A stretch of 64,000 nucleotides of DNA, taken from Panorpa germanica (taxonomy: Eukaryota; Arthropoda; Insecta; Mecoptera; Panorpidae). A program made the translations under genes and the position numbers. Within the stretch, counting starts at the first letter, position 1; each line of letters starts with the position of its first letter. Positions 12,246-64,000 of this stretch are shown here, one piece after another. Where the stretch lies: the NCBI GenBank assembly GCA_963678705.1, contig OY783216.1, positions 10,230,001 through 10,294,000 on the forward strand, written 5' to 3'. The notes under the pieces were generated by a model, which did no database searches, was not told where the DNA came from, and saw nothing but the letters and a program-made list of their open reading frames with translations.

Positions 12246-12414
12246 TATTATATTACTATTTTAATTCAGTCATTCAACAATTGTCATTCAGTCCATACAA
12301 TTGTATTACAATCGATAATTCCATACCTGTAGTTGCAAGAGCCGTATCAATATATTAATACTATAATGCTCTTTCCGTTTCTTTTTATCTTATAAAAGGT
12401 TTATTTTATAAGGC

Positions 12415-19657: not shown

Positions 19658-19854
19658 TTAGAGAAGTATCATTAGAAGCAGATAGCACCAAGTTGGCAGC
19701 AGACAAACACTCGGTTGCTGGGCTCCTAGAAAATAAAAATTATAAGTACTCTACATATAAATACTGTGCTTGCATTTGTACAATAAGATATATAAACACT
19801 TTTCTAAATTATTAAATATTTTATTATTTTTACCTCCATAATGTACGTCGCCGA
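19658..19854 (-). CDS. Gene B terminal exons: hydrophobic tail and stop
   Basis: The last exon 19658-19725 (coding part) is entered in phase 1 after a TTTTCTAG acceptor and encodes GAQQPSV then CLLPTWCYLLLMILL and TAA. The stop aligns with the TAG of gene A although the bases differ. A candidate 21-nt exon at 19834-19854 (VGDVHYG region, AAG acceptor, GTAAAA donor) may precede it, placing small residues (GGA) just before the hydrophobic tail, as at a GPI attachment site. I see no certain polyadenylation signal; an AATAAA-like site lies near 19310 on the minus strand. Confidence 0.8.
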
Positions 19855-20788
19855 CTTCAAACCAACAAAAAATTGAATAATAACATATATAAGTTAATAA
19901 ATCAAAATAAAAACCTACAATTTATTTTTTGATGGCACTTTCTGTTTTCGAGATATCAGCGGGCAAAAGTACGTTCAAAAACATTTTTAAAAGTTGTAAA
20001 TAAAATATTTTAATTTTTAAATTTTTTAAAAATTTTCACAAGGGGGGACACCATTGAAATTTGATAAAAAATTGATGGTCTCCGATTGTAAAATTTATAA
20101 TAGTTCCTAACGTAAAAATTTATGCTGATTTCAAATCTGAAATTTATTTTTTGGTGGCATTTCCGGTTTTCGAGATATTAGCGATTCAAGGGTTAAATAA
20201 TGGAAATATTTTAAAATGGTTTTCAGATTTGGAATCAGCGGGAAAAAGTACGTTCAAAAACATTTTTAAAAGTTGGAAATAAAATATTTTAATTTTTTAA
20301 TTTTTTAAAAATTTTACAAGGGGGGACCATTAAATTTTGACAAAAAATTGATGGTCTCCGATTGTAACATTTATAATACTTCTTAACGTAAAAATTTATG
20401 CTGATTTCAAATCTGCAATTTATTTTTTGATGGCACTTCCGGTTTTCGAGATATTAGCGTTTATAGGGTTAAATAATGGAAGTTTCATAGAAGTACTTAC
20501 ATCCTAGGGTAGGTTAATTGTGACGTTAATTTATTATAAGAAATATTATAATTAAAATTGTATCTTATGCAAAAACCGCACTTAACAATGCTTATGCTGG
20601 GTATACGCATAACGATTTATCGGACAATCCTATATCATGTTTTGTAATGTAAATGCGTGTATACATAATATACTCTAAATAGAGAATCAATAGAAATCAT
20701 TAATGTTTAATTATTATTTATAATACCTTTATATCGCTCGACTTCATAATGAAAAAGTTGTAATAAGAAAAACACAATTAGCATATTT

Positions 20789-20852
<64 letters not shown>

Positions 20853-23800
20853 TATGGACGTAACGGGTGCTTCTTAATTAATGTAGACAGCACAACAATT
20901 TGCAGATCATAAGAATTAGCTGTTTCTGCCAGTGTGCGTCCTTTTTTTTAACTTACCACCTATTTCACGTCAAGAAGTAATTATTTCTAAAGTTACTATG
21001 GGATAAGAGTAATAACTGAAATAAGGAAAATATTTTCGAAGAACTTACAGACTGTACAACAATTAATTTGTGCTAATTATTGATTTTATTGATAAGAATT
21101 GATACCGCCAAATATTACAGAATGTACAACGAGCGCAAAGAACGTTGTGAAATATGTGTATATGGTTTAAAATGTCGCTGTATTAAATTACAACAACATA
21201 ATTTGTGCCAGCACCATATTCCCATTGATTATAAGCAGAGAAAGTCTTAAAACCCTCATTGACTTTATCAATGAAACTAATTTAACCTCAATATTTCAAA
21301 TACACATCCTCGTATTTATAACCTATAATGTTTGATATGTTATCTTCGTTATTCACTTATGCTGGTATAGCTACTGCTCGACATGCGAATCAGACATGAC
21401 TAAATCGCATTGTGAGTATATTCACAAGGTCAACCTAGTCGTGCAACGAAGTGCATAAGGCTGTGTCTTCAAAAGCGTATAATAAACTCATACGTACAGT
21501 CTGCATCAATTTTGTAAATATTTGTAAGATTTTATTCACTCTTAGCGTATAGAAAACTAAATAACTTATACTAAATAAATATCTTTGTATAAATATAAAT
21601 AAACTAATATAATGGGCTTGTGTCCTCATTTTTTAGTGGTCGATTTTTCAATTGCTGATTGAAATTGATGTTAATAAATATATATTGGCGTGTCTATTTT
21701 ATTAAATACCTAAATGTTGACGGAGATATAGCAATTAATAGTTTGAATTGTAGTTTTAGCGCTAGAAATGGTCGACCATATTTGTATGACGTGAAATGCA
21801 TTTTAACGTCAGTTAGTTGTTGAGTAGGCCAGTGCTGTGGTAATGTTCTGTAGTTGTTGGTAGTCAAATAATCAAGTCAAGTCAAAGAATAATAAGTTTT
21901 TGTTTTATTTAACCCTGCTAAGGCAGACATAATATTGAAATTTGATTGTTCCTTGAAATAGCTGTAAATAATATTTGATATTTTAATATATAAATACATA
22001 TAGCAGAGATTTATGAGCTGTAAGGTTGGTAACCTTACACAAGGATTGTGATGTCACTAGCATTTGGAATGTTTACAACGTTGAATCCCTTTAATAATTA
22101 AAGAGACAAAATGACTTTTTTAATTGTTAATATCTCTTGAAATATAATGAGTTATTAAAAAATAATTGAACATTTGAGGTTCTAGTAACTCACTTTATCA
22201 ATATGTAGTACACTTTTATAGAAATTAAGACATAGGACACAAGCCCATTCATAAACATTAAAAATTTAAAAAGTCAACAGTAAGGCTCCGCCGCCGACAT
22301 ATAACTTATATAAAGTAGAGTAAAAGTAATGCTGAATAAGTGGCAGAATGTAAGACGGAGCCCTAATCAAATTAAAACCTATTCGTTTCTAATTTATTAT
22401 AATTAATATCGTGTGTTACAACTGCATTATTTTTCTAAACACTCACAGTCTGTGGTAATTGAAACTTTAATTATTTTACATGAAAAAGGAATCTGAGAAA
22501 AATTTGAGAGCATCCTTTCATCATGATGTGTAAAGAACCATTCATATTTTGTGCAATAATTATCAATTCTCAAGCTCTCAAATTATGCTATTTGGCGCCC
22601 CCTGTCCTATTTCAAAGATTCGCCTTATCGTTTCGCTTCCCCTTATCCACGGGGCTACACCTGTGGCGGCCCTGCAATAGTATATTTTCATTTACTTACA
22701 AACTTCTATATTTTTTATGTTATTGAACAAGTATTACTTTCTTTTCACTTAACCATTAAAGAAATTTCTTATAAAATATTGTAAAAAAGAAGACGTACTT
22801 TCTTTCGTTAGATAATAAAATTTCATTTTTTACCGCTTGTATAAATACATTGGCTACCTCATTTATGGTAGGACTCATTTCATACATAAGAACACTGCAT
22901 CTCCTGATGACATTTTAAATATTGTGATAGTACAAATCTGGGTATTGAACGGACCAAGAGAATGCTACAAACGCACAACTAATACAGAAACAAAAACTTT
23001 TTTTTAATTCTATTAACTGAAAGAAAATTACAAAAAAATAAATTGAATGTTTAGGTTTATCTAGTCTATAAGGGCACGTTCACCGTATGTATAATAATTC
23101 GACTTACGAGAGACTGTAGTGAGCAAGACAAATGTTATTTTTATTACAATTATATTACAATGTGTATTTACAACTGTCAAATTTGTTTACATAAAGATTT
23201 TATAGCAATTCCTTCTACACTCTCTGCAATCACTTACGCTCTGTGTTGGAAATAATGGGCCTGTAGTATTCGTATGTAAAAAATAAGATGTTTGGGATAA
23301 TTTATTTATTATACTTTTTTAATTAAAGAGCCTAATAGACAATTAGCTTGGATCAGAACCAAGTTAGTCGTGCATAACACCATGATTGCTTTTAAGTGAA
23401 TAAAAGTTTTGCTTACGTTCTGTCGTTGTGAAACAATTATGATATAAATCGTGACGAAGTTTGCAAGCTATCTTTCATCCACGCTAATTAGTTGTCGCTG
23501 GTATATCTCACTATTCTTGCTATTGCAATGCCATCTATGATGTAGAGGCAGCAAATACTTTTAATGTCGAATGGTAATAAATAATACATTCCGTACCCAG
23601 AAAATATTGGAGTAATTCGGAATCGAACCTGAAGGCACACCACTTTGGTTTCCCGCATTATCGCTCTCGAGCACTTATGTTTTTACCAAATAATTAAGCA
23701 TGAAACTAAATTTATTTTTATATTTATAAAGCAACCTACCATCTGTAATGTTTCAATAATGAAATATTGACAGTGCCATAATTAAATAGTTACGCCATTA

Positions 23801-26800
23801 TTATTATTTATTTATTGAAGTTGCCGAAGATATTGTTACACACAGTAAATTCGCTATCACGACTTTTAAATGTAGAATAAAATAAATAGGACATTAGTGA
23901 TCCGTTATCAGACGAAAAAAACGAGAAATTTATTAGTCAAGTATCATTCCCACTGTTTTAATTTTGTTTTTAGTTTTGAATTTATTTGGAGGATTTGATA
24001 ATTAGACTATTTGAATTTCCCGCGCAGCTCTCGTCAACTGTCATCTATTAATAAACTACTGTCAAATTTTGAGCAAGCAGCGTTATTTACTTTGTTGGTG
24101 TCGTGATTGAGATTAAATGTGTAGTGATCATCAATTTGTTCAATCAATTACTTACCCTCTAGTATTGTATAAACAACCATTAAGAATTTGAAAGAATGTT
24201 AAAGTACAAGTTTAAAAACAAACTCATAATTCAAAGTTGTTTTTATGGTTTGTTTAAAATTGCAGAATGTGAAATGCAATGCTTCAGTCTTGCAGCTTAT
24301 CTATTACATCTACTACAGGATGCAGGCTTAACTTACCCTCTAAGAAGATTGTGACAGAAGATGTACAATGGTGTTGAAGGCGTTTCTTCTAACATATTTT
24401 GTGTATTGCTTTGAAACAGTCTTACCTTCTAATAGGTTCACAAGTTTAAAAATAATTTATAGTCTAAGAGGTATTCTCTAAAATACAAATTTAATATTTT
24501 TGTTATCCCCCTCCTCTGTTCCCATTGTGAGACCTTTATGACTCACACTTTATGAACCCCTTTACCCCCACTTCATTTTTATGTGACTTACTCCCTAAGA
24601 TTAGAATATAAAAAATTATTTTTAATTTAATATTTAGTCGGTTAGTTAAAAAACATTAATCCTTATTATCCTGCCGTTTAGCTATTCTATCTATCTGTGC
24701 TTATTTATCTAAATGCCGATGCATTTATTTATTTATAAAACTTACAAGCTATAAATATATATAAACAATATAATATTTGTTCACATTTAATTATCTTTAT
24801 ATATTTGGTAATTCTGTATCTAACTACAATGCACTAATCATATATTTGTAGAACTGATTATTGACATTTTCTTACGTGCTGTTTTAAAATATTATAATTA
24901 TTATTATATAATTTTGAAGCGGTGTTAGAAATTATTGTAATACGTTATTAAAATCTTAGTCCGCTCCTGTTTTGTAACATTTTAAGGGCACCCTTTACTA
25001 GAAGTTACGAGTCAAAATAAATTAAAATAAATTACTAAGGCTCTGAAAGAAATGTGCATGCTTATTTCTACTAAATTTTAAGCATTAATTTGACAATCAG
25101 AGATTACAATAAGATACATTAGTAGGCAGGTCATATTGCAATTGTGTTCTTACCATCTTATGCGACATAAATAAAATAATAAAATACTAGCATCTATTAT
25201 TCAAAGCAACAATTTTAGCATTACCTAAATTCTGGCAAATACGAGTACATAAAACTACTAAGCAAAACTTTTTGATAACTAATTTATTATTTTATATATA
25301 TTTATTATAACGAAAATACTGATAGCAGTATTCGTAAAAGAAAAACTTACAAGCTGTTTAATATTGTAAAATTTAACATTTATAAATTTGTGCTCCAAAA
25401 CTTGGTGCGTAGATTTGTCTTTCACAACAAAAGGCCTGTAATCAGAGGACCGCACATGTGTTTTAACTTGACAGTACGCTTTGCCATTTATCAGATTCTT
25501 AGCTGCTAAATCGAAAACATTCATATTAGTGCACTGCTGCATAAATGTTGTGAGCTTGTGTGGCTAGAATGTCCAGTGAGTTAGGTACTTACTTGCTGCA
25601 TATTCAATAGTTTTAATAAAATGAAACCAAACATAAATAAAATATTTATGTTATTATCTAGAACTACAAAATATGTGCAACGCATTGTAGAAAAATATTT
25701 ACTGACTGTTATTAATATAATGTAAAATAAAAATTAGTGTGTTACAATAGCAAATGTGAAAACAGCAAGAGGAGTGAGTGGGTAATTTAGTAAAACGGTT
25801 ATCGTAATAATATCGTCGGTAGTACAAAATCATGCTATTCTAGAGAAAGCTAGTGAATTAAAGAAACAAGATTTGAAGAAATGATGGAGATAGCAGAAAG
25901 ACAGCTGTTAAAAATTATAAGTGCGAAATTTAGGACAGCCGAATATGGGAAAAGACATGGGATGAAACGCACGATCAAGGGTGTAGAAAGTAGAAGGAAA
26001 GAGGACAGGAATAATTACGGAAAAGGGAGAAGTAAAAGATATATAAGAGTGTGTACAGGAGATGCTGAAATTATATAGCTCGCACGCGTCTTATATCAAG
26101 GATGTGTATAGTTCAAATCACGAGAGTTCGGCGGCGACTTATACTTAAAAGAGGTTATAAGAGCGGTATAAATCAATAATACGATAATGAATTTTATCTT
26201 ATTCGTTTCTATATACATTATAGAAAAATAAGTGAGTCAGTGCTTTTTAGTTATATCGGCAGTTTATACCCCACAACTTGTTATAAGTATGAGTCGCCGA
26301 ACTATCGTAATTTGAACTATATTAACACCTGACAACTTGGTAAATAAATACTGCTCTGTTACGTAAATGTTACTTACTTACTGATTTAAAATTAAGGTTG
26401 TGTTAAACGAATTATTATGATCTCTCTCTGTGTCCTATTTTTTCTTTTTTGTTTTGAAAATGTTAAAGCAACTTATTACAGCATTGCAGTGTGCTTAAGA
26501 CATGTTATTATATTCATTTAGAAATGAGAATTGCTTGATATACTCAAACTAAACTAGAAAATCGTCAATAACACAGTCAAGGTATAAAGGTCACGAGGTC
26601 AAAGAATATACTTACAGTCTATTGATTGAGTAGAAAACATATTACTTAATTTTTTGTTTGACAAAAATGTGATATTAAACAAAATAAACATTCTATCTTA
26701 AATAAAATTTAGTACTCTGTGTTTTTTTTTAAACTACGCACTTGTTTAAATGCCAAAATACTTTTTAGGTTATTTATATCATCTACACCGTTAACGTATT

Positions 26801-29800
26801 AAATAGTTGGAGATGTTGCATTTTTATCTAAAATGATTTTTTTGGTGTTGGTGTTCAAACTATTTTGACGTTAGCTAATCATGCACGGCCGTCGCTTCCA
26901 ACGTGCCGGATGAACAGAGGGCTACTGCCAACTAAATCTGGTGGATTTGAAAATGCGTAAATTAAATTTAAATATAATATTATTTACCCTCTGTTTTAAT
27001 GGCGACGATAATGAATAACCATGCATAATCAAATAATAATTATTTAAATAAAATATAGTCCAAATCACGAGAGTTCACCGGCAACTTATACTTAAAAGAG
27101 GTTATAAAGAGCGGTATAAATCTATAATACGATAATGAATTTTATCTGATTCAAGTCAGTGCTTTTTAGTTATATCGACAGTTTGTTTTAAATATGAGTC
27201 GCCGCCGAACTCTCGTAATTTGAACTATAGCTAGAGATGTCTCAAAAGCATATACGAGTTTGTATTCAGATAGAGACGTACCATCTATTCAAATTTAAAG
27301 ATATCTTGTAAATACAATTGGGTAGATGTCTTTTCATAAAATAAGTAATCAATTTAGTTCATAAATACAACACATAGCTAGGATTGCGAGGGGTACAACA
27401 GAATGCTGTTTGGTACGTTTTAAATTAAAAAAAGAAAAACTAAATTAATGTTTTATGAAGTCATCTGGCAACCCTATTCATTCCTGGTTAACACGGTTAG
27501 GGAATCTCTCTTGATAAAGTATGCTAATGTTTTCTGTAAAAGTCAAATATCGCAAGTAGTCGATTCACTGTCAGAGTGGAATCTTAACCCATTACTCTTC
27601 AGTTTTTTAATTAATTTTCTTAATTAATTAGTACTACATATATATCATTTATTTGTACTTCATAAGATTATAAGCCTGACCAAATCATGCTACTTACTTT
27701 CTAAATAAGGGCATAATACACAGGCTGTTTAAAGTGAAATCACATATATGTATATGTATAACACATCACTCATAAAGTTTGTAGAATGACATATAGATGG
27801 AGGTATTAAGAAATACATTTTTAGATAGTACCAACCTTCAAGCGATATATTTAAATTTTATATGACATTACGACCAATTGTTCACGAGTTGCAATGGTTT
27901 TACTGATGCCACTTTTGTAATTTTTTAAATAATGAAAAAATCTGAATTTCGTGTTGATTAATAGGAGAAATACCTAGTCCGAATAACACTTGTCAATCTA
28001 AAGAATGTTACATAAACTAATATACTTAACTTACCTTCTGTTTTTATTGCAATTAATGTTATTAATTAAAAGTGAAGATGTTGAAATTAACATGGATAAG
28101 GTTATGTAGTTAGTGATGATAATTAAAATCATTATTTTGTACGCACCACCTATATTAGTATTGAAACGAATGTGTAGAAACAGTTCTCGAATGACTGAAA
28201 CAATATTAAATGGTAAAAACTTACAAACTGCATAAAATATAAATGCAAATTCAAAATATATTATGAACGCATGCGCAGAAAACAGTTTCCAAATAACACG
28301 AAATATTAAAAAACAAAAATCTCTGATTGGAAACAAATAATTTCGACTGGATATAAATATAAATGTTTTAGAAGATATCATCAACGTCTTTACATATGTG
28401 TAAAGTTTCTTATTTAAAAAGAAACAGTTGCAACAGAGTTTTTGATCTTAACAGAAGCGACGGTTTTGAGGTTATATTTACCACCTGTTCAAATATACGT
28501 ACAAGAAGAATTAATCATTTTTGTTTTCTTTCCACATGTAATATGCACAGGCCTGACGATAAAGGATGTCATGATCTAATTATAAGTAGATATAGAATAT
28601 ATTCTGACACTATATGAGTCACTAGCCACGGCTGGGGCATTTACAATTTTCATTTAAGGTTCAGCAGGAGCAGATCCGTTTCTACAGCTAGACGAGGCTG
28701 TATTTATCTTCATAAATCTACACGCATTATAAATTAACTTACATTCTGTATAAATAGATGTATTAATATATACATTGTTTTACAAATTTTGAAAATTACT
28801 TTCATATTTTTATTATTTACTTACCCACTATAGAGAATATAATTTTAAACTTTTATTACGTCTATGTTATGTAATCAAGGATACCAGACGACCCGATATG
28901 GGCATGTGAGTCCTGCATAAGTATTTAAATGTCCCGCAAAAATTAAATCAACAGTTTTTAATCTTATTTAAATAGCAGGTAGTTTGGGATCTTCTAAAAT
29001 TGTCATTTATAAATATTAGGTTTTCAAAACTTGTGATTCTTAATACAATGGAAAATAAAATATGAATTATATATTTTTAACTTGATAGAACCAAACTAGA
29101 TGTCACTACTTAATCAAATATTATACATACGAGCTGTGTATTAAATGAAATGCTATTTACTTATACGAATATTTACATATAGACATTTTTTGAATCATTT
29201 TATTCAGTGTCAATTTATTTAAGGTCTAATTAATACGAATGAATGTTTTTGCGATTCTTACCAGCTGATAGTAAATTAAATTACACCTTTACAACCTAAA
29301 TCCAAATGGCTTGTTCATATTTTGTACATATTTGTATTGTTTTTAAGGAAAATATCATTGATATTGCGCTCAAATATTTTAAATGGAGCCCTGATTTAAA
29401 CTTATGCCCACTCATATTGTGTTTGGTACGCATAGTTCTATTTGTATTCGCTAGGTGGAGTCTACATACATTCCTATATCTTTACAGGGAGGGAGTAACA
29501 GTATTTTTATAATACTTACGTGCTATTTATACATGAAAAAGTATACTACATTGTTATGTAATGTAACAGCGCGAACTGACAATCATTAGCTCTAAGTTTC
29601 GGCATATTTCATTTATCAAACAAGATTAACATAACCTATCTTTTTTCAATTTTATTACAGTGCTATAATTAAATTTAACAACAAGAATTATCTCATAAAA
29701 ACTTACGCCTGTCTGTAAATGATATATTTAAATTGTTAATGCTTTAGTATACTATTATATTTAGAATATTTTATTCGCTAAACACCAAATACAGATATTA

Positions 29801-44550: not shown

Positions 44551-45039
44551 CTTCATAATAGAAATGTTGGAAACAAAAAAACACATGTTATGCATAAGAG
44601 AAAATATGAGATAGTTTCAAATCTGATTTCTATAGAAATTTAATATTGGGTATATTATTGAATATTGGCTGAGCAAAATTAATTTATTTTTTATATTAAT
44701 GTATATTTTGCATAATTACTCACCACCTATTTAGAAGAATATCATGAGATAAATCTTAAAGTCATTAATGATAACCTTAATTTCTTTATTTCTTTAATCT
44801 AAGATCTACTACTCAACAATTTGTTTAATGCTAAATATCTTTAATAAGGCAACGTTTTTCACGTGACAATCTTACATTGTTTCTCCAACAGTTAGGTTTT
44901 TATAATGAGGATTATTTTGTAAAACGCTGACTACAAAATAAATTAATTTCTGGTAAAGAAGGACTACACTTACATTCTATATTAGATAGAAATATACAAA
45001 TATATTTATTGGTGATTATTTTTAAGGATCAGAAATGGC

Positions 45040-45105
<66 letters not shown>

Positions 45106-51100: not shown

Positions 51101-54100
51101 TTACATGCTGAAATATATTCATATATAAATGCAAATTAAAATAGAAAAGAAATAAATGAGTATGCTTAAGGAAATGAACAGGATTTTGTGCAATATCAAC
51201 TTACGAACTTTTGTGATAATAATTAAATATTAGAGGAGTTAATAAGCCACCACTCGATGCGAATCCTAGATCAGGGATCTCCAAACTGTTTACGCATGAT
51301 GAAATTGCACTGATTCTGTATTTGTGACTGTATTCTGCATACAAATTAATTCATAGAAACTATAATATTTTGCATATAAATATTTTTCAGATTGGATTCT
51401 GTAGAATTTTAGAAATGTTTTTTCTTTTTAATTAGAGAGGCAGTGTGTCCTTAGTGTGGGCTACTTCAGCTGTTAATTAAATAAGACAAACTATACAAAT
51501 ATTATAAAAGAAACTTACGTTCTTCTATTGGTGAAAATAAATAATTTTAATGTTTAATTTGTAAAATTTTAAAAACATACAGAGACCTTGCCGCGTGAGT
51601 CTTCACAATAAAAAGAATATTCTGTATGCAATGAAATTTGCATACCGTTATAAAATTTGAAAAGAAATAAATGTAATAATTATTTTAAATCACTTAGAGA
51701 AGGGAGTAGTCAAAAATCGTTGAGGCAGGGTAGTCGTACAAATACATATAAAAAGTAATATGTCCACAACTTATAATATAGTATATTATTTTTTTTTTAA
51801 TACGTACTTCCTGTTAATAAAGGTAATTTAATTGTTGCTGTAGTTTTAATCGAGGCAAGTCTATTAACTGACAAGTCAGAAAAGAAAAGGCAGTGCTTAA
51901 TCTAGAATACGTCTAGGCCTATATCTTCGGAACTTTGTCACAAGTAGTTACAAAATAGGCGTTATATTATGTAGTTTTTAATAATCGCTTACCATCAGCT
52001 GTTGAGCGGATATTCCAATAAGTGATTAATAACTTATGTCGCATTAATATAGGTCATGGGCGCCCGCAGAAAATTTGGCAAGAGGTAGCGTACCTAAGAT
52101 TCCATTCTGTCTGTCAAAAATTTATTACTGTCTATATTAAATTTATTATTATTTTATTTAATAACTAGTGGGGCAAGTTCAACATTTGCTCTTATCTGTG
52201 GACGCCTATGTATGTATTTATTTTGCATTTCACACTTACGAGAAGCTACATGTTACAATAGAAAAATTAATTAATTAATTTAAGAATTAGATACCAGTTA
52301 ATTATTTATAAGAGAAACACTTACTTGCTGAAACGTTTAAATAAGTTTTGTTAAGAAAATTACTAACTGCAATCTAATATACATTTTAAAATCACAAATT
52401 TTAATACAGAATTATTTATAACTTGGATAAAATATATAAGATTGAAATGTTATTTTTGGAACATCTAAATGTTTTTTCTCTTTATATAATCAATCAATTC
52501 GATTCGTTATCTTTATTTATTAAGAGATATACTTGCAACGCATTGTGGTTTTCTCTTTTTAATAAGTTTCCGCCCGGGAAATATACAAAATTTGGAATGG
52601 GAAGTACATGTGAGTCTTCCTGTGGTATAATAAAAACCGTCACGTTTTCACAATGTACAAACATGTCCATGCTCTGTTGTAATTAGCTGACCTGATTTAT
52701 TAAACCAGCAACATGAAAAGAATATGCCTTTTTGACCCATAGGCTTTGCAATATTGAAAGTAATAAATTTATACTACATATAAAGTAATATTACTCACGT
52801 CCTAGAAGAATAAACCAAGGGATTACATCCTAATTCAAAATATTATAATATAAAACTCATAATCATATGTTCAAAATGAAACTTACGAACTTTTTAAACA
52901 TATATCAAACAATTAAAAAAAATATTGTGAGCTGCTTCTATTATTATATTTCTTCGAGAAATAAAACTCAAAGAAAAACTATAATAATCGTAATATTTAC
53001 CTACTACATTTTAACAAACAATTAAAAAGTTAATTATTTCTTAGTCGTTAACAAGTTAATTAGAAGATTTTAATTATTTAATTTGCTTACGTCGTGCTAG
53101 CCGCATAGAAATGTCATTGGTAGATGAAATGGACAAAAGGAATGTTAGAATATATGTTACTTTTTTTTAAATATTATTTATTATGAAATAGCACATTAAC
53201 TGCACCTTATCTAGAACCAATCAATTGACATTTGCTTCTTTTAATCAAAGATAAGTTTCACGACAATTTCTTGCTCTATTTCCGACAAACAAAAGCCAGA
53301 CTGGTACGTCTACAACTTATTCTAGTAAATCGCATACCAAATTTTATTTTAATTGCATTTGAAGCAATTGGTTTTTGTATTCAATTTTGTTTCTGTGGCG
53401 GCTTTAGTTCACAACCCAATTAATAATTAGTTTATATTTACGTTCTATGAAAAAATTAACACACTCTTTTTAATATTATTAAGTAATTATAAATAACAAA
53501 TAGAAAGCCATCTATATACGTCAATAAATAAATCAGTTTCATCAATAAAGTAGTGGCAAAAGGGTGAGACTGTGAAGTATATTGATGCTAATGTTTCTTT
53601 AAAATAAATGTTTTAAAAACCCAGTTCAGCTTTGTTAAGTATTGTATAGTTTAACTCTTCAAAATACTTACTTCTGGGATGGAATTCCACAGCTAAAAAT
53701 ATTATTAAAAATGTTTTAAAATAAAAAAATACGATTTGTAATTAAGATAAATAATGAAAATATTATTTACATTCGTTATCTTCCATTTCGACCGTAGCTG
53801 GAACAAGTTGAAAGACAAGATGAAAACAATGGTGTAAATAGTACAGCTCCAAAATTAACTAGTGTTCAAAACATTTGCAGTTAAGTAGTATAATTAAACT
53901 CTACTTACGACGGCCTTGATACGAGGAAGTTTTATTGATTAACTTTGAATATATATAATTAATTAAATTAAAAATTATATTGAATATTCACTATGTGTGA
54001 TATTGGCCAAGAAGTCTTATCTATGAAGTCTAAGTACACTTACTACGACCTTGAATGAAAATAAAGAAAACAATATACGTTTACATTCATTTCATATCAA

Positions 54101-57100
54101 ATAGAGCCACAGCAAAGCGTGATAGGGTTATGCTAGTTTATAAAAAATAACTATTTATTATTTACAATTACTTACGAGTCGTGCTAATTGTGATAGCGTA
54201 TGCTGTAAGAAATTAAGCAACATTGTATTTAGTATTATTAAACAATTTTCGTGAAATTAGAATAGTAACTCTTCTTCAAATACAGGATTTATATTAGTGG
54301 AAGATTTAATTACTATTTAGACGCTAGAATTAATATTTTTATATTGTTTTGTTACTTACGGTGTCCTGATTTTATGATTTACATAACCTATTTTATAATG
54401 TTTCAACTGTATGTTTATATTCTTATATGTTTGGTACTGAATTTTGTATGGCAGCGCGAAAACGGCTCCGTCAATGTTTTTCAAAATTGCCTATTTCGTA
54501 GAGAAAAAAATTCTAAGACTTTTAGCGTCCCCAGATTTTCCCCAGCATTTCCTGAAAACCCGTAATTTTGGAAAAACTGGAAAAAAAGTGAGCCCTTTTT
54601 TGCTGTATTACTTTTAATTCGTAAAAGATAGAAAGTTGAAATTTTGCATGTGTATTAAGGTATTCAATGCTGACATTTCTCAAAAATTAGAAATTCAAAA
54701 ATTGAAAAAGGGGGGGTTTAAGAAATTCAGGGGCCCGGTAGGGAACTTTGGAGAATGTTCATATTAATTATTATTTGTATTTTCTTTGGGAAGACTTACT
54801 TTTTCCTATGTGAAAATAATTATTTGTAAATAATATAATAAATAATTAAGTGAGTAATTAATAATAATAAAAAGGAGTAACAAGTATAAGCGCATATATT
54901 ACTTACGTCGCACTAGTTCCATAATATACATTATAAGATTTTTATTGTGACAATTTTTTAAATGTTAAAAAATTCAGTTGCTTTTATTTTATGTATACGC
55001 TAATGTAATGAAGAAAATAAATAGAAAAAATGCAAATTACGAGAGTACGGCGGCGACTCATACTTAAAACAAGTTCTGGGGTATAAACTGCCGATATAAC
55101 TAAAAAGCACTGACTCACTTATTTTTCTATAATGTATATAGAAACAAATAAGATAATATTCATTATCGTATTATAGATTTATACCGCTCTTATAACTTCT
55201 TTTAAGTATAAGTCGCCGGCGAACTTTCGTGATTTGTACTATGTTACTTTAAATCATTCTTAAACAAATTCCTAAAGTTGATAAATGTTAATATCGAGAT
55301 AATTACTTATTTCCATCAAGTCCACGTCATTTTCACTTCGGTCATCATCAGTTTCATAACTTTGTAGCGGGTACATAGTTGCTAAAACAAAAATAATTGT
55401 CCAAAATAAATACATAAGAATATAACGCACGAGATTATTTTTAGAGCGAAAGCCAATTATAACTGGATTGACTTCAGTAAATTGGCTCTTGGTACGGCAC
55501 TGGTGTTGCACTCGTACTAAGTATATTATTATGTTATGCAGGTATTTTTAATGGTATTAATAATAAACTATAGTTACTTTCATCATCGTAATCATAGTCA
55601 AGTGAAGTCGCTGAAAAGTAACATTTAATTTATTAGCATCATGTTACATAAATCAGTCGTAGGAAGCGATTCAAAATATATCTATACATAAATGCAATAT
55701 TACCATAAGTTGTTTCATCATAAAAATCCAGATCTAAAATAATAATAACCAATGTTAATTAAATTAATTTTTTTATTAAATACAAAATAATATTAATATT
55801 TTTTAAATAAACAATACAATGCAGTTGTACTAACACTTGTATCAGTAATTGAACACGTGGCTATTTATCAAAATTTACAGTTAGTTGCGATAATAATTTG
55901 CACTATATTATTAAAACGATAAAGTAAAAATAGTTCCATTGCAGGGGCTAGACAACTTGACTAATCCGACTTATGTTAGTTCCCATTAATAAAATGTATG
56001 TAGCGTTTACATCTAAACGTATCTGCTATATAAATATTAGGATTCTAATACATATATTCAATTCCGTGTTTTAATTACCATCAAGTGAAATTCCTATTTT
56101 AGAATTAATGTTAATAACCAAACAAATACACAATACATTATTTAATAATATTCAATATAAAATATTGTTAGATATTAGAGAGATGAACAATTTCGTCACT
56201 TGTTACCGGATATTCGTGACACATTAAACAATAAATATTATATTCAATATTCGCCGTGTTATATTCAGGATAAGTTTGTGTGACAGTCTAAACTGCAAAG
56301 ACAAGTCTCAAATAAATGTTAAGTCTATCTCGTAATACGTACATACAATGTTAGCGGAGGTAATTATTGTTTCCAACAGAGATGTGCACAAATAGTTTTC
56401 AAAAGTATTTAAATACGAAATAGATCAGGCTCCCAGACTTAGTTTCTTTTTAAATATCTAAAAGTTAACAGAGCCGCTTTATCTTTAGTTATACTTTGAC
56501 GTAACGGGATTAATATAAAAAATACTTCTATTTTCTCCCTGCTCACCACTTTCTTAATATCTTAAGTATATGTTTCGCCTTGAGACATCTGCAAGTAGTA
56601 TCTGTTATATAAATGAGATAGCAATTCATACAACGAAGAGAGAGAAGGAATTGGAAATGACATTGTGCGATTACTGATCCTACTAATTTCTTCAGCACAA
56701 TTCAAACATACAAGAGAATTATTTATAAGCACTGATTTATATAAGTAAATAAATTTCTATTTATTCACAGCAATTCTTATTATTTCTTTAACATTTATGT
56801 AATAAAGGTTTTGTTTGTGTTTTTTGTCACTTACCTCCTACTGAACATTGGAATATTTTTGTCGTATTAAAGCTTCACCAGTTTTACATTATTTAATTAA
56901 AATTAGGATTATTTTATAAACACATTTACTCTAATAAATTGCGTTATAATAACATACTTCGTTCTGCAGAAATATGATAGTAAATGTAGTTGAAAATGAT
57001 ATTATTTTAAATATGTAATAACAATTAGTAATAAATAAATTTTGTTATAATAAATTTACTACTTACTTGCTGTGTTAGACAAACGTATATTTAATGACAA

Positions 57101-60100
57101 TAAGTAAAAGATACTGTGAAATAATTAGTAATATAATATTTATTTACTTCATATACTCACTAACTCCCCCATCTTATTTATTTATAAAAATTATTTATTA
57201 TAAATATAAAAACTCTTCTGTAAAAATAATCTTTAATAAAACTACCTTTGAAACCAAATAAAAGTTTAGTTGTATTTTATACTTGGTATTTAATTATAAA
57301 TGACAATAAGAAATATTAATATGCAACAGCAATTCGTATGAAGGTAAAATAAATGTAATTATCGAGGTAAATATTACAGTCATTAAAAATTGATCATTAT
57401 TTTTTTAGTTTTTTGAAGAAATTTTCTTTTAATTTAATTTTTTCACGCATTAAAAGAACCACCAAAGGGGAGGGTGGGTTGCACCACAACTTGTGCCTAA
57501 AGATACACGAATCCTAAACCGGTTTTTGTATCTGAGGTACATCTGCTAGTCAAATTGATTATTGCTGAGAATTATGGTCTATATTCATTTGTTCAATTTT
57601 CGATTTATAATTTATTTACTGATTCAATTATTAGCTACAAATTAGAATGCAAAAAAAGGGATTATGTTTAACTTACGCCGCCCTGGAGTTTTGAGAATAT
57701 AATATTTAAAACTAAATTACAAAGGTTACGTTACTACAACTATGGTTACTTGTAGCCATGGTTAGAAAATATTCAGAAAGAAATGAAATTGTCTTTCTTC
57801 ATAAGATGTAGAGATATAGTTGATTAGAGCAAAACATTTAACCAAACCAAAGTTATAATGTTTATTTGACATTAAAATATTTTACGTATTATAAAAGGTG
57901 TTGTCTGATACGTTCTATAACCTATTTTATTGCTATTGCAACCAGAAAATTACTTTGAGTAATAATAGAAAAGACACTTTTTATTAATTAATGAAACTTA
58001 AGTCCTTTTGAAGGATTAAATATTTAAAAGATATCTGTAAAGTCATAAACTAAATGGATTTTAGACAAAATCTAAACGTTTTAAAAAAAATAATACTAGG
58101 TTTCAATTAGCCAGGGATGTTGTGTATATATCTACATCATCTACAGCATCTACACCAATGAAGTTGTCCTCAAGCGTCGGAAATTGATCAACTTTAAATA
58201 AATACAGTACACTTACTTCCTGTTAGTATAATTCACGAGTGTCATTAGATTGTTTAATATTGTACGTTATTTAATTTTAATTGGAGTAAGCCTGTTTATT
58301 TATAAAATAAAGAATCATGGCTTGGTTTGAGAAAATCAAGATAATTTCTGTTTAAGTCGATTTATTTAATATGAATTGCTTAATTTTCCTTAGCATTCCA
58401 TAGTTTTTTAGCTTTATGTTTTTTCCTACTAAATATTATATAATAAATTATTAACAAAATGAGATTTGTACTTTACTTTCTAATCATGTAAACACAAAAA
58501 TTAAATTAGATTTGTACTAAAAGTTTTTAGCTTTATATTTTCTCGTACTAAATTTATTATATAATAAATTATTAACAAAATTAGATTTGTACTTTACCAT
58601 CTAATCACATAAACACAAAAATTAAATTAGATTTGTACTAAAAGTTTTTAGCTTTATATTTTCTCGTACTAAATTTATTATATAATAAATTATTAACAAA
58701 ATTAGATTTGTACTTTACCTTCTAATCACATCAACCCAAAAATTAAATTAGATTTGTACTAAAAGTTTTTAGCTTAATGTTCTTTTCAACAAAATGTTAT
58801 ATAATAAATTATTAACAAAATTAGATTTGAACTTTACCACCTAAACATATAAACATAAAAATTAAATTAGATTTGTACTAAAAGTTTTTAGCTTTATATT
58901 TTCTTCAACAAAATGTTATATTATAAATTATTAACAAAATTAGATTTGTACTTTACCACCTAATCACGTAAACACAAAAATGAAATTAGATTTGTGTTTT
59001 TCAAAATATTTTTAGCTTTATGTTTTCTTCTTCAACAAAATATTATATAATAAATTATTAACAAAATTAGATTTGAACTTTACCACCTAAACATATAAAC
59101 ATAAAAATTAAATTAGATTTGTACTAAAAGTTTTTAGCTTTATATTTTCTTCAACAAAATGTTATATTATAAATTATTAACAAAATTAGATTTGTACTTT
59201 ACCACCTAATCACGTAAACACAAAAATGAAATTAGATTTGTGTTTTTCAAAATATTTTTAGCTTTATGTTTTCTTCTTCAACAAAATATTATATAATAAA
59301 TTATTAACAAAATTAGATTTGTACTTTACCTTCTAATCACATCAACCCAAAAATTAAATTAGATTTGTACTAAAAGTTTTTAGCTTAATGTTCTTTTCAA
59401 CAAAATGTTATATAATAAATTATTAACAAAATTAGATTTGAACTTTACCACCTAAACATATAAACACAAAAATTAAATTAGATTTGTACTAAAAGTTTTT
59501 AGCTTTATATTTTCTTCAACAAAATGTTATATTATAAATTATTAACAAAATTAGATTTGTACTTTACCACCTAATCACGTAAACACAAAAATGAAATTAG
59601 ATTTGTGTTTTTCAAAATATTTTTAGCTTTATGTTTTCTTCTTCAACAAAATATTATATAATAAATTATTAACAAAATTAGATTTGTACTTTACCAGCTA
59701 ATCACATAAACACAAAAATTAAATTAGATTTGTACCAAAAGTTTTTAGCTTTATGTTTTTTCCTACTAAATATTATATAATAAATTATTAACAAAATTAG
59801 ATTTGTACTTTACCAGCTAATCACGTAAACACAAAAATGAAATTAGATTTGTGTTTTTGAAAATATTTTTAGCTTTATGTTTTCTTCTTCAACAAAATAT
59901 TTTATAATAAATTATTAACAAAATTAGATTTGTACTTTACCATCTAATCACATAAACACAAAAATTAAATTAGATTTGTGTTTTTGAAAATATTTTTAGC
60001 TTTATGTTTTCTTCTTCAACAAAATATTTTATAATAAATTATTAACAAAATTAGATTTGTACTTTACCTTCTAATCACGTAATCACAAAAATTAAATTAA

Positions 60101-63100
60101 ATTTATACTAAAAGTTTTTAGCTTTATATTTTCTCCTACTAAATATTATATAATAAATTAACTAAATAAATAATTAATAAAATTAGATTTGTACTTTACC
60201 TTCTAATCAGATAAACACAAAAATTAAATTAGATTTGTACCAAAAAATTTTTAGCTTTGTTTTCTTGAACTAAATATTATACAATAAATTATTAACAAAA
60301 TTAGATTTGTACTTTACCATCTAATCACGTAAACACAAAAATTAAATTAGATTTGTACCAAAAGTTTGTAGCTTTATGTTTTCTCAAACAAAATAATATG
60401 TAATAAATTGTTAACAAAATTAGATTTGTACATTACCACCTAAACACATAAACATAAAAATTAAATTAGATTTGTACCAAAAGTTTTTTAGCTTTATGTT
60501 TTCTCCTACTAAATATTATATAATAAATAATTAACAAAATTAGATTTGTACTTTACCAGCTAATCAAATAGAGACAAAAAGTACATCAGATTTTATTTAT
60601 TTATTATTACTAATAGTTAGTTTAATACAGACGAGGTCATGACCTTACAATTTACAACACAATTCCACAATATACAAAATAATATTACTAGAATTTACCC
60701 CCGTCGCAAAGTGATGTGTATGATTTTAACCCGTTCGTAATATCATTTTAAATTTTAATTTTATTTTCAAATTGAAATATTTAACTCGTTCAATAATAAA
60801 ATAGTTTTTCGTATATTGACTAAAAAAATATATATATTCAACAAAATATCAAATATTTTCAATTTATATTTATAGCGAAATTAAGACTAACACACATTAC
60901 TACTAAAGCAAAGTTGAATTTGTAATCTGTGTTTTTCAAACAAGGCAGCAATTAACTCATTGACTCACCGGCTTTAGTAACGCATCACAAAGATTATAAA
61001 CAAGTTTTGAATTTTTATAGTGTTACCAAAATTCGTATTTTCGCATCAAGTCTAATTTTGGATCACTATCTGTAAGAGTATTTAACAATTAAAGGTGCTC
61101 ATTATTTTGTCTTTACTAGTTTGATATTAAATTTAATAAAAATATATGATATCAAGTGTACATTTGCCAACATTAGGGATGCACAAAACAGTTTGGTACA
61201 ATCCCAAAATTCTAAACTCTTATTTAAGAGTACAATTTTTAACGATTAACTTATATATAAATATATATAAGTCTCGCATAGCAGAAAATTTTATGTTTAC
61301 CTGCTTTGGCTGTAACATTAACAAGTAATAACCAAAAAATAAATTATTTAGAAAAAAGGGAACAATATTATTATCTGCACCACAAATATTTGATGTTAAT
61401 TTCGTTTCTTATTGCAGCTTACGATCTAATTGCGTTGATTTATTTTTACTAATTTAATACATTATTCGATTAATTTATCTAATTATATTAGATTATACAA
61501 CTCACAAACTGTAAAAATAAAAGAAGTACTAAAATGTTCTTACAGTATTCTTTTTAAGATAAATTACGATGGCTTACTGGCTGCAATAAAAACAATGAAA
61601 CTCTACATTTAACAATTGGATTGTAGATATAACTTGTTTTTCACAATTTTAACATGTTCACAAAATAAATAAATAAATAATTAATAAAGAAGTGGAGTAC
61701 ACGAAGTTTTATGTTGAATAGTAGAGATTCACTCCATTAAATATAACATATATTTTACAAATAATATATTTTTATATTTACTATCTGAACGGTTTCAATT
61801 AAGTTCAATGTAATTTATTAATATTAATCTTACACAAGATTTTACGACCAAGGTACAAAATACATCTTACAACTGTATAATTCTAATAAAAGTCATCTTA
61901 CAAATATATGTATATAATATATAAATAAATATATTGTTAATATTGGACTTACATTCAGCTGCATTTGTGTAAACATCAACGTTACATATAGAAAAATTGT
62001 TTAAAATATTAAGTTAAATATCTATTTTACCATTAACAATTATCAAAATCTGCACCGATAATAATTCCGCGTAATATCACATCAATACTTATTCACACAT
62101 ACCATCAGAGTCTGATTTATAATTAGGCTGAGCACAAAATTGCTTTTCCGAAGATTTTAAATTAATATATTCACAAAAATAATTTTATTTATAATTTAAC
62201 TTAATAAATTAATTTATCTTATTGTGTTAAATGGAAGTAATTGAAGTCTAACTAAACTATACTAGACTTACGATCTGTTTTCAAAAGTAATAGCGATAAT
62301 TCATTTTTACATACTTCTACAATTTTTAAGATTGCAGTTCGATGAAATAGCTTCACTAATAATTTATCTACTATTGTTTATATATTTTTTTCACTCTATA
62401 TTTTGTTTACACATCATGAAATGCAGGTGATTACAGAAAAGAAACAAATAATGTTGTTTAGAAACGATAGTCACCACCATAATAAGTTATTATTAGACGA
62501 TACAAACGTTTTGATTTCTGCTACCAGTTATCAAATACAATACATATTTACGCACTCTGCGTGAGCTCGTGCAACTCTTAAATTTTTTTTGAAGAAATAA
62601 TATAATTTTAACAATTGGAGATTATATTAATATATTATAGTTAACATACCATCTATTTCATGACACCAATTTATCAGATTTTAAATTTATAAAAACAAAT
62701 AGATTTTACGTCTTTACGTATTTCATTTTTTACGTCTTCTTATTGCTATTTTGTAGACAGCATGCTCTATATATATAAATCATATATTGTATACTCACTG
62801 CCTGTTTATTTGTGAACAATCATATTTTCAATTAATAAGTAATAGTTATTAAAGTAAATAAAGTGTGTATATGTCTTAATTATTTCCCACAATTATAAGA
62901 AATATCGCTTTTGTGATAAAATCTTAAAATAAGATGTTAAGTTGATTAAATTTAATTGAAGTTGTTGACGATCTAAATCGCCTAATGCACTTTCATTTCT
63001 AATAATTAACTTACAGTCTGTTAGATTTATGATTTACTAAATTAATAAGTATTTCTTATATTTTTACATCTACAGATTTAAATTATACATCTAGAAATAA

Positions 63101-64000
63101 TTAATTGTATAAATATAATCGTATATAATAATAGATTGTCTTTGAAAAAAATATACTATTTAAATCAGCCAGAAACTTACGGCCTAAAGATAAAATTAAT
63201 CAGTGGGTGTTTTTAATAAATGAATAAATATTTTTAATTGGTTCTCATAAAGCAAATTAATTTGAATGCGATAATAAAGTTTAAATATTTAAATGGCGAA
63301 CTTGTCAAGTGCAGGTTTGCAGTAAACCGTATTTAATTATTTTTGCACTCCGGCTAACATGCACCTTGAAACCTAAACTCTTAAATATGTTCCATCAGGT
63401 CTATGTTAAGAAATAATAATGCGGCTATATTTTATTATTGAACATAACCCTAATGAGACTAGATATCTACGATTTAATTACCTTCTGCAATTAAAAATAT
63501 TAAATATATACTCGTATTTATAGAAAGTGCAATAAAAGTTTTAAATTATTCGAATTAGATTTATTGTAATGAAATTCCAAAAACTTTCTATGTTAACTTG
63601 TAACTTACCACCAGATGCTAAAAAATATATATTATTTTTAGACAAATATAGAAATCAATGTATATGAAATGTATGAGGATAACACGCCGTTGCAAAAATA
63701 AGATTTCTAAAAACTTGGCATACATTAGAAATACAATTGTCACTAGATATAAAGGAAAAGGAAATTTCCTACGACTAGGTTTTTAAACTATATATATTAT
63801 GTTCAATAATTGTTATATGAGAACCTAAAAATTTTCATATTAACATTCATATTTTAACAAAATTTATAATTATTTAACAAAATATTAATTTCAAATTTAA
63901 GAACGATTGAAAAAAGTAAATGATGCCTACCCTCATGTATGAAAATAATTGTTACAAAAATAGGTAAAAGTTCTAACAAAAATAATAAATTTAAATACAT
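44284..64000 (-). CDS. Gene A: secretory protein built from ~95 exons, most of them 3 nt
   Basis: I do not recognise the family. The start codon is the last three bases of the window (63998-64000) and the stop TAG is at 44284-44286, so the coding region is complete but the promoter is not included. I identified about 70 exons of exactly 3 nt and about 25 longer ones (6-80 nt). All internal exons are multiples of 3 and all junctions are phase 1 (one base of a codon upstream, two downstream). Chaining them gives about 230 residues with no stop, in the order: signal peptide; HCND region; Gly/Glu/Asp/Ala tract from an exon array; basic stretch; acidic Tyr-rich segment; RRKR; two 27-nt and one 21-nt exons; Cys-containing C-terminal motif; hydrophobic tail. 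Donors are mostly GTAAGT or GTAAAT. Gene B is its paralog, downstream on the same strand. Individual microexons may be missed or spurious, but the overall architecture is well supported by the A-B agreement. Confidence 0.87.
44724..53444 (-). CDS. Gene A C-terminal single-codon exon run (CYC...DMITTYAPW...IYYKC)
   Basis: Exon starts in order (3 nt unless stated): 53442 aac, 53091 cacgac (6), 53001 tag, 52887 ttc, 52799 gac, 52364 tta, 52325 caa, 52240 cttctc (6), 51993 ctgatg (6), 51808 gaa, 51519 aac, 51205 ttc, 51105 cat, 51019 gct, 50943 att, 50859 gtg, 50759 atg, 50665 aca, 50477 atg, 50369 agg, 49523 aca, 49431 tga, 49345 tca, 48953 caa, 48715 cat, 48546 atg, 48429 ctc, 48341 ctt, 48069 ggc, 47884 aac, 47781 caa, 47219 atg, 46918 aag, 46633 aga, 46124 tcgcaa (6), 45676 gca, 45539 ttt, 45333 att, 45151 aca, 44974 aat, 44724 gtg. 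They encode KPRLVRLTTSPDGKLP, then CYCDDNEDMITTYAPW, then QPNEEIASIYYKC. Triplets tag and tga are harmless because they are read out of phase. The run matches gene B over CxC and D-L/M-ITTYAPW and ends in a matching IYxxC. Confidence 0.87.
45042..45101. repeat. (AT)n microsatellite
   Basis: About 30 AT dinucleotides in a gene A intron, between exons 44974 and 45151. Confidence 0.95.
47546..47631 (-). pseudogene. Orphan exon-like frame ending in a stop
   Basis: After a CATGCAG acceptor, one frame reads KDCDFEFDPEQIYPVGSQSS to TAA. It is acidic and aromatic like the gene A centre, but the phase does not fit the chain (it needs phase 2 entry), and gene B has no equivalent. Confidence 0.25.
49041..49320. 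mobile_element. Mariner-like element end, solo remnant
   Basis: TACGAGGGTTGTTCGAAAAG is the usual terminal repeat type of Tc1/mariner-family mariners, preceded by TA. I could not find a matching inverted end or transposase, so this is probably a decayed fragment in a gene A intron. Confidence 0.6.
53672..54912 (-). CDS. Gene A polybasic site and 27/21-nt exons
   Basis: Exons in order: 54907-54912 tgcgac (MR), 54800-54805 gaaaaa (RK), 54360-54365 gacacc (RH), giving MRRKRH, which fits the R-X-K/R-R consensus for furin-like proprotein convertases. Then 54176-54202 (27 nt, YAITISTT), 54044-54049 gtcgta (RR), 53909-53914 gccgtc (SR), 53771-53797 (27 nt, TVEMEDNE) and 53672-53692 (21 nt, VEFHPR). 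The 27-, 6-, 27- and 21-nt exon series occurs in the same order in gene B (32380, 32292, 32135, 32034), with clear similarity in the second 27-nt exon (M-D/E-D-N-E) and in VxFH of the 21-nt exon. Confidence 0.87.
55030..55245. mobile_element. MITE family Y, copy 4, intron of gene A
   Basis: Copy between the 6-nt exon 54907 and the 75-nt acidic exon 55307. Its absence from the equivalent gene B intron dates the insertion after the gene duplication. Confidence 0.8.
55307..55733 (-). CDS. Gene A acidic, tyrosine-rich exons
   Basis: Three larger exons, all phase 1-1: 55704-55733 (30 nt, LDFYDETTY plus split codon), 55578-55610 (33 nt, TSLDYDYDDE) and 55307-55381 (75 nt, including SYETDDDRSENDVDLMEI). 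Acceptors are TTTTAG or TTTTCAG and donors GTAATA, GTAACT and GTAATT. The 75-nt exon corresponds to the 99-nt exon of gene B: both have a Tyr-Pro pair near the start, SY followed by a run of Asp, Glu and Ser, and end in EI before the same phase-1 junction. Tyrosines flanked by acids are the usual context for tyrosylprotein sulfotransferase, so sulfation in the Golgi is possible. Confidence 0.88.
56079..58219 (-). CDS. Gene A basic stretch before the acidic domain
   Basis: Exons in order: 58217-58219 gaa (R), 57677-57682 ggcggc (RR), 57161-57163 tta (L), 57067-57069 caa (T), 56958-56963 aacgaa (KR), 56835-56837 gag (R), 56079-56093 (15 nt, GISLD). The product reads RRRLTKRRGISLD, a strongly basic stretch ending in KRR-G. 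The tta exon has an unusual GGGGAG acceptor, but a matching tta exon with similar context is found in gene B (36269), and caa is paired by flanking sequence with gene B cat (36001). An open run at 58103-58204 lies in the first intron here and is treated separately. Confidence 0.74.
58103..58204 (-). pseudogene. Orphan protein-like frame, possible transposase remnant or alternative terminal exon
   Basis: The frame reads VDQFPTLEDNFIGVDAVDD and, shortly after, YTTSLAN and a stop. It looks coding, but no standard upstream acceptor is clear. It sits in the intron between gene A exons 58217 and 57677 and is not found in gene B. Confidence 0.3.
58400..60600 (-). repeat. 18-unit tandem array, one 3-nt coding exon per unit (gene A)
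   Basis: Units of about 118-132 bp repeat 18 times. Each has the minus-strand core TTAG, NNN, GTAAAG. Exon starts and triplets in transcript order: 60557 ctg, 60437 gtg, 60318 atg, 60200 aag, 60068 aag, 59941 atg, 59814 ctg, 59695 ctg, 59568 gtg, 59449 gtg, 59330 aag, 59203 gtg, 59084 gtg, 58957 gtg, 58838 gtg, 58719 aag, 58598 atg, 58477 aaa. Because nearly every triplet ends in G, each exon adds a GNN codon, giving AGDEEDAAGGEGGGGEDE. The intron parts of the units are nearly identical while the first two exon bases differ. A three-unit block (aag-gtg-gtg) appears twice, 58.7-59.1 and 59.3-59.7 kb, pointing to recent segmental duplication within the array. Confidence 0.88.
60969..63617 (-). 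CDS. Gene A N-terminal microexons (HCND region)
   Basis: Exons in transcript order, with minus-strand sequence: 63609-63617 (9 nt, ASG), 63482-63484 aag (E), 63181-63183 gcc (G), 63015-63017 act (H), 62799-62801 gca (C), 62650-62652 atg (N), 62272-62274 atc (D), 62103-62111 (9 nt, HSD), 61953-61958 ctgaat (AE), 61782-61784 ata (Y), 61578-61580 cca (T), 61506-61508 ttt (I), 61423-61425 atc (Y), 61301-61309 (9 nt, PKA; a 3-nt version 61301-61303 is possible), 60969-60971 ccg (A). Each residue is read from the last base of the previous exon plus the first two bases of the named one. HCND is identical in gene B. The smallest introns here are about 70-80 nt. A further candidate, tgc at 62552-62554, has a weak GAG acceptor and no partner in gene B, so I left it out. 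Confidence 0.8.
63931..64000 (-). CDS. Gene A exon 1: signal peptide
   Basis: This 70-nt exon holds 23 codons plus one base and ends at a GTAGGC donor (phase 1). The peptide begins MYLNLLFLLELLPIFV and is almost wholly hydrophobic, as in a secretory signal peptide. Gene B exon 1 has exactly the same length and phase and begins MYFNLSFLFGVAI, which supports the start choice in both genes. Confidence 0.88.

Follow-up and report, generated by a model that had tools for sequence, protein, structure and literature searches.

Two candidate scorpionfly genes modelled largely from single-codon exons

Introduction

Could a gene be assembled from tens of exons that each contribute one codon? The question is raised by a stretch of 64,000 nucleotides (nt) of the 464-megabase (Mb) genome of the scorpionfly Panorpa germanica (C13:10230001-10294000, here called the window; positions are relative to it unless a chromosome is named). 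An earlier note on this DNA had reported about 125 minus-strand sites at which an acceptor AG, three bases and a donor such as GTAAGT follow one another, and had proposed two genes made mainly of exons of exactly 3 nt. We refer to the two candidates as gene A (19658..41141) and gene B (44284..64000); both, with all of their features described below, lie on the minus strand. Excerpts of one report describe very short exons as thought hard to splice, since exon definition and the room required by the splicing machinery oppose them (PMC4674806). If the candidate exons are used, splicing must build much of a protein one amino acid at a time, and a series of 50-65 single-codon exons would put the pairing of splice sites to an extreme natural test.

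Results

Under an explicit donor rule, gene A had 58 sites of the form AG-NNN-donor and gene B had 67, and the resulting 125, which agrees with the count in the earlier note, takes in tandem array units and overlapping alternatives. An AG was found 3 nt upstream of GTRAGT in 64 of the 103 minus-strand donors of the two genes and in none of the 16 donors that these stretches have on the plus strand. In the flanks of 200 kilobases (kb) the corresponding figures were 3/67 and 4/99 for the two strands (7/166 together), and the comparison of the gene minus strand with both flank strands gave a Fisher p of 1.6e-26. Over the window, GTAAGT occurred 89 times on the minus strand and 11 times on the plus strand; an AG stood exactly 3 nt upstream in 54/89 and 0/11 of these, and 6 nt upstream in 26/89 and 1/11. 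When the DNA was scanned in 4-kb steps, the minus-strand excess was confined to 20-64 kb, and the remaining window and 100 kb on each side were at background.

The distribution of spacings was examined with weight matrices for acceptor and donor, the tandem array of gene B being left out. At the stricter thresholds (4, 8) there were 59 acceptor-donor pairs at 3 nt, 15 at 6 nt, 3 at 9 nt and 3 at 12 nt, together with three pairs at 0 nt in which the exon itself ends in AG, and all other spacings below 19 nt were empty. No 3-nt pair occurred in the minus-strand flanks, and on their plus strand the two genes had none below 31 nt. At the looser thresholds (3, 7) the same four spacings held 78, 19, 4 and 3 pairs, and spacings of 0, 1, 2, 4, 5, 8, 17 and 18 nt held 1-4 pairs each. 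Because 54 AG-NNN-GTAAGT sites of genes A and B served to train the matrices, the training favours the 3-nt count; it does not favour the confinement of the remaining spacings to multiples of three (3n), and the claim of 3n spacers is borne out at the stricter thresholds. We found no zero-length recursive site independent of a 3n exon in this analysis, all four 0-nt pairs at the looser thresholds being exons that end in AG.

The last exon base had no preference for G (C18, T18, A20 and G14 of 70, figures from these genes alone), while the GTAAGT consensus was kept at 69-80% at each of the four free donor bases. From these two features the donor seems to be recognised, and the information of the 5' splice site seems to be carried, from the intron side alone. 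Upstream of the sites, CTAA was found 35 times versus 17.3 expected and TAAC 40 times versus 22.6 expected.

As modelled, the architecture is one of about 80 internal exons per gene, most of 3 nt and the rest mostly of 6-27 nt, with 3n lengths and in phase 1. In the models, which are partly hand-curated, between about two thirds and three quarters of the internal exons have a single codon, namely 53/79 in gene A and 65/87 in gene B (18 of the 65 in its array). Their share of the codons is smaller, a quarter to a third, and each gene has a middle block of longer exons. The middle block of gene A (31600..36300) has exons of 6, 9, 12, 15 and 21 to 30 nt, and that of gene B (52799..57682) has exons of 6, 12, 15 and 21 to 33 nt mixed with 3-nt ones. 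The gene A exons between 35485 and 33691 are doubtful and have no partner of equal length in gene B; the model is at its weakest here. Exon 1 is 70 nt long in both genes (41072..41141 in gene A and 63931..64000 in gene B), and therefore the internal exons fall in phase 1. It holds a start codon and a hydrophobic signal-peptide-like stretch, and it ends in phase 1 at a GTAAGT donor in gene A and at a weak donor, GTAGGC, in gene B. The last exons, of 68 nt in gene A (19658..19725) and 80 nt in gene B (44284..44363), carry a hydrophobic C-terminal tail and the stop codon. The exon boundaries at 41072, 63931 and 19658 proposed earlier hold. Modelled introns have a median of about 196 base pairs (bp) in gene A (range 75-946) and of 145 bp in gene B (range 69-843), and every intron between internal exons is shorter than 1 kb. 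By eye, a repeat of about 600 bp occurs twice in the same orientation in the introns of gene A, at 39910-40510 and at 21613-22246 (minus strand).

The models were curated by hand before the exon chains were aligned. In gene A, the exons at 38783, 23009 and 22894 were dropped, those at 38456 and 36924 were added, and those at 37362 and 37216 were exchanged for the 3-nt alternatives at 37359 and 37213; exon 36924 is one base out of register (it should start at 36923), which alters one residue and leaves the lengths unaffected. In gene B, the exons at 62576, 61872, 52366 and 45758 were dropped, and those at 62652, 61425, 60971, 58219, 53096, 52327 and 50371 were added along with the 18 array exons (53003 was already in). 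The uncertainties of the gene A model enter the queries of the Pfam search, of the comparison of the two proteins and of the search with the alignment of A and B, and those of the gene B model enter the queries of all protein searches and of the same comparison.

Each model gives a continuous reading from start to stop, that of gene A without a candidate exon at 20503. In an exon set chosen blind to frame, which comprised genes A and B and four loci outside the window, the three readings contained 8, 8 and 4 stops, phase 1 having the fewest. Shuffling the exon order gave a mean of 9.7 stops in phase 1, and a fraction of 0.0095 of the shuffles was as low as the 4 found. Against an expectation of zero, these four stops (two in gene A, one in gene B and one at the outside locus L035) can be attributed to exons below the threshold, whose omission breaks adjacency. 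The phase-1 junctions of the earlier note are thus favoured by the lowest count and not by a count of zero, and a single open frame for each gene is what the curated chains give, with a reservation about the chain search that is taken up in the Discussion.

The two genes can be compared exon by exon. When the triplets were aligned in their order, with the gene B array excluded, the score was 39.0; the reversed order scored -10.1, and 2000 shuffles of triplet order had a mean of -6.65, a standard deviation of 3.95 and a maximum of 9.2. Alignment of the curated exon chains gave 64 pairs, 61 of them equal in length, with a score of 68.9 versus a maximum of 20.9 in 300 shuffles. The chains share a block of exon lengths, 6/6/6/27/6/21-27/21/3/6/3/3/3 nt, in which gene B has one extra 6-nt exon; the middle block of gene A pairs with gene B in order from 33527 on, and some exons occur in only one of the two genes. 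The introns of A and B are mostly beyond alignment, and blastn returned a few short patches, AT repeats and repeat elements. In 33 chosen exon pairs the bases were identical at the three exon positions in 26, 23 and 26 cases, and identity fell to the intron level (about 0.2-0.55) within about 10 nt of the exon; as these pairs were picked from the alignment for having splice dinucleotides, the shuffles of triplet order are the fair test. With the exons masked, flank similarity joined three A-B pairs, of which two match the exon pairing and one is adjacent to it.

Across the aligned runs, amino-acid identity was 0.50 in phase 1 versus 0.40 and 0.44 in the other readings, and there were no stops in phase 1 versus 6 and 7, a difference that is partly there by construction. 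Seven successive 3-nt exons in phase 1 spell ITTYAPW in gene A (24592..25705) and again in gene B (48069..49347), and when the codons were compared by eye, the two runs had two nucleotide differences, both synonymous. On these alignments, genes A and B are read as two diverged tandem paralogues.

The predicted products, of 215 amino acids for gene A and 199 for gene B, are 36% identical and have the motifs HCND, RR-R-P, DNE-V-FH, VRP and YY-C in common. Windows of 15 residues with a mean hydropathy over 1.6 start only at residues 1-14 and 199-201 of product A and at residues 1-11 and 176-184 of product B. Judged by hydropathy, both products therefore have the signal-like N-terminus that the earlier note had assigned to them and the hydrophobic C-terminal tail that would go with secretion or with a glycosylphosphatidylinositol (GPI) anchor. 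It is somewhat likely that the genes encode a fast-evolving protein that is secreted or GPI-anchored and has a variable linker, acidic and rich in Gly.

A tandem array occupies the same position in the exon order of each gene, and the two arrays are visibly different in sequence. In gene A (36836..37494), a unit of ~146 bp is present in 4.5 copies, and by eye a small exon of 3 or 6 nt, with an ambiguous acceptor, is readable in 4 units. In gene B (58405..60593), 18 units of ~119 bp carry one 3-nt exon each, and the phase-1 product of the array is AGDEEDAAGGEGGGGEDE. Among these 18 units the mean pairwise difference was 0.66 at the first exon base (N1), 0.43 at the second (N2) and 0.11 at the third, and 0.12 over the 112 columns of the intron, in which one column exceeded the variability of N1 and nine exceeded that of N2. 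Diversifying selection on the triplets is one reading of this variability.

Similar signals were found elsewhere in the genome. The pattern TNCAGNNNGTAAGT occurred 875 times genome-wide versus 576 times for the reversed control, and its individual places are those among the matches listed, down to early C2. In seven further stretches (on C1, three on C2, on C4, on C5, and on C13 near 5.76 Mb), a 3-nt spacing was present in 62/95 donors of the gene strand versus 4/50 of the other strand; these stretches had been fetched for containing the pattern, so the choice favours them, C4 is thin (2/4), and L035, a 94% copy of L033, was excluded. Near 5.76 Mb on C13, 14 of 16 donors within 4 kb had the 3-nt spacing. 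On C2 there is a tandem series of copies at 3.13-3.98 Mb. Two copies of this series share 94% identity across 6903 aligned bases. Of the 13 listed 3-nt exons, 12 could be aligned between them; AG and GT were kept in 12/12, and one triplet had changed, at N2. A pattern for intron pairs was found 48 times versus 20 in the control at spacings of 70-100, with no overall excess at spacings of 101-131 (34 versus 32). Since the signature recurs on chromosomes 1, 2, 4, 5 and 13, the two genes of the earlier note, both of which find support here, probably belong to a gene class, the other loci being likened to A and B by architecture.

Several further observations concern these other places. In C13:5736839-5768000, candidate exon pairs lie on the plus and then on the minus strand, as in a possible divergent gene pair. 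At L037 (C2:13403701-13404700, minus strand) there is a 106-bp tandem array in which five units have the exon-like triplets CAA, TAG, AAA, TAA and CAA. Further candidate places appear on C3 and C8 among the pattern matches, and in C8:9738852-9827057 the matches run in mirror order along opposite strands, which suggests that a candidate locus was duplicated in inverted orientation.

Between genes A and B, on the plus strand, lies a single open reading frame with a THAP domain (42130-43281; 47.7 bits versus a cut-off of 23.9). At 12414-12925 and 19955-20481 there are tandem repeats of ~277 bp whose units are similar. The COX1 translation (code 5) of the mitochondrial contig matched Panorpidae sequences at 100% identity across the whole query, among the 8000 candidates with the most shared words, and an aphid or plant-pest origin of the DNA is rejected. 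COX1-like nuclear fragments occur on several chromosomes and are probably mitochondrial insertions.

Discussion

Taken together, the results indicate that genes A and B very probably carry spliced coding exons of 3 nt. Many single-codon exons are the reading at which we arrive because of the 3n spacing, the splice-site matrices, the confinement of the signals to one strand within two gene bodies, the colinearity of the paralogues, and the phase-1 frame with its conserved peptide.

Several points weigh against it. The case rests on DNA, from which we infer that the triplets are included in mRNA. The chain search forbade stops, so that the open frames are partly built in, and it allowed 3n lengths only, which makes the 3n rule an assumption for exons longer than 18 nt. 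The candidate exon at 20503 in gene A, dropped as having no partner, gives a stop ahead of the last exon. At locus L036, outside the window, the triplets without an overlapping alternative had, by eye, a single stop when read in phase 1, whereas phase 0 was free of stops. The contrast between codon positions in A and B is weak, with differences at positions 1, 2 and 3 of 27, 16 and 20 in 64 codons, and the branch-point motif CTRAY had no clear enrichment (20/96 versus 111/718). Protein searches found no homologue: none of 172 candidates reached E 1 for the gene B product alone, and none of 2439 reached E 10 for the A+B alignment, both among 5.8 billion proteins; the gene B product had one PDB match, at E 5.4; and in Pfam neither product had a family over its cut-off, YxzE scoring 15.2 bits versus a cut-off of 40.

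The triplets could also be real but facultative microexons, any subset of which could be skipped in frame to give combinatorial length variants. Schistosome micro-exon genes (MEGs) yield length variants by exon skipping, and the 3n spacing, the single phase and the exons that only one of the two genes has would all suit such use here. Long ordered runs of exons in both paralogues, including the seven with identical residues, fit regular inclusion better, and we regard facultative use as an appreciable though lesser possibility. A different role is that of recursive-splicing ratchet points, which would aid the removal of long introns and leave the three bases out of the mRNA. The layout of an acceptor adjoining a donor is indeed that of Drosophila ratchet points (PMC8605326). 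Ratchet points have AG directly on GT, however, a feature that we did not find here outside exons ending in AG; the spacing is 3n, the bases between the signals are conserved in order between A and B, and the modelled internal introns are shorter than 1 kb. We consider this role very unlikely.

Could there be no working gene at all? A dispersed repeat or satellite carrying AG-NNN-GTAAGT might have been copied through the region, as the tandem arrays of the two genes and the 106-bp array on C2 could suggest. Among 96 sites outside the arrays there were 28 flank-similar pairs, of which 11 are neither A/B counterparts nor overlapping neighbours; yet 8 of the 28 are counterparts in the A/B exon alignment, 9 are neighbours with overlapping windows, and the other 11 match over only 16-56 nt with the low-complexity filter off. 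A copied repeat also fits poorly with spacings of 6, 9 and 12 nt and with the colinear order and bases of A and B, and this already disfavoured explanation is scarcely credible. Relics of microexon genes that have lost their expression would agree with genes known from DNA and with the weak GTAGGC donor of gene B exon 1. Both models are nevertheless readable from start to stop, the products have motifs in common at 36% identity, and both genes have splice dinucleotides at paired exons despite diverged introns (in pairs chosen for these), which together make pseudogenes very improbable.

If the 3-nt exons are spliced into the mRNA, they may be joined stepwise by intron definition. An upstream exon would be spliced onto NNN-GTAAGT, after which the donor's intronic half, now adjoining the grown exon, would serve as the next 5' splice site. 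The two sites of one 3-nt exon would then not have to be occupied simultaneously, and both splice complexes would not have to be placed on three bases. Donor recognition from the intron side would suit a 3-nt exon in particular, as the exonic half of its donor would change with each splice. We see an even chance that splicing here is of this kind, recursive-like with one codon kept per step.

Genes of this kind could be lengthened by tandem duplication of an intron-exon unit, which would add one codon per copy and keep the phase by construction. Unit duplication itself keeps phase and length, and it thus offers a simple reason for 3n exons in a single phase. That the genes have grown in this way, with the gene B array as such an expansion, is moderately likely. 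A bolder proposal is a genome-wide class of genes that grow codon by codon through unit duplication, with diversifying triplets between near-fixed introns, a ratchet that uses the intron side of the donor, no exon definition, and a length that changes by codons, possibly between individuals; we hold this tentatively, at a little short of an even chance. If the single-codon exons are real, they would offer proteins a route of growth by one codon per duplicated intron unit, which the gene B array makes directly testable across individuals and species, and common gene predictors and RNA sequencing aligners would hardly see such genes.

In literature titles and the beginnings of abstracts, no gene with tens of single-codon exons was found among the matches listed, which is not proof of absence. 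The comparisons that follow draw on excerpts of the cited reports. Isolated exons of 3 nt or 1 nt are described in homothorax, troponin T and NCAM (PMC7392893), in Arabidopsis APC11 (PMC4674806) and in Fusarium CYP621A (PMC12940212). They are like the exons proposed here in that splicing can handle exons no longer than one codon, and they differ in being single cases per named gene, whereas 50 or more stand in series here. In Drosophila, ratchet points have a zero-nucleotide layout in long introns, and the cryptic downstream exon is usually absent from the mRNA (PMC8605326). The adjoining acceptor and donor, the regenerated 5' splice site and the stepwise removal are alike; the introns here are short, and 3n bases would be kept.

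The schistosome, aphid and salivary comparisons of the earlier note stand as analogies only, alike in part in architecture, as the host is a scorpionfly. Schistosoma mansoni MEGs are described with 10-20 short exons in each gene, most of them 15 bp long, in a range given as 6-81 bp in the text and 3-81 in the abstract (PMC10526429). Genes A and B resemble them in many very short, mostly 3n exons, longer introns, predicted secreted lineage-specific proteins and several loci, and also have the hydrophobic N-terminus and the symmetric (3n) exon spacing. Homology was not seen in general protein searches of the A and B products, a direct comparison with MEGs not having been made. Aphid bicycle genes are described as having numerous small internal exons, nearly all of which begin at codon position 2, and megacycle genes as having more than 100 microexons, one gene of 118 exons encoding 2092 amino acids at about 18 codons per exon (PMC9168663). 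No bicycle or megacycle homologue and no Pfam family appeared in the searches, in which no dedicated profile for CYC motifs was run. The likeness lies in small internal exons of one phase that start at codon position 2, as they do in our models. The differences are that MEGs have far fewer exons than the about 80 per gene modelled here, where 3 nt is the commonest length (53 of 79 and 65 of 87 internal exons), and that, compared with megacycle genes, about 80 exons in another insect order would yield a protein of about 200 amino acids.

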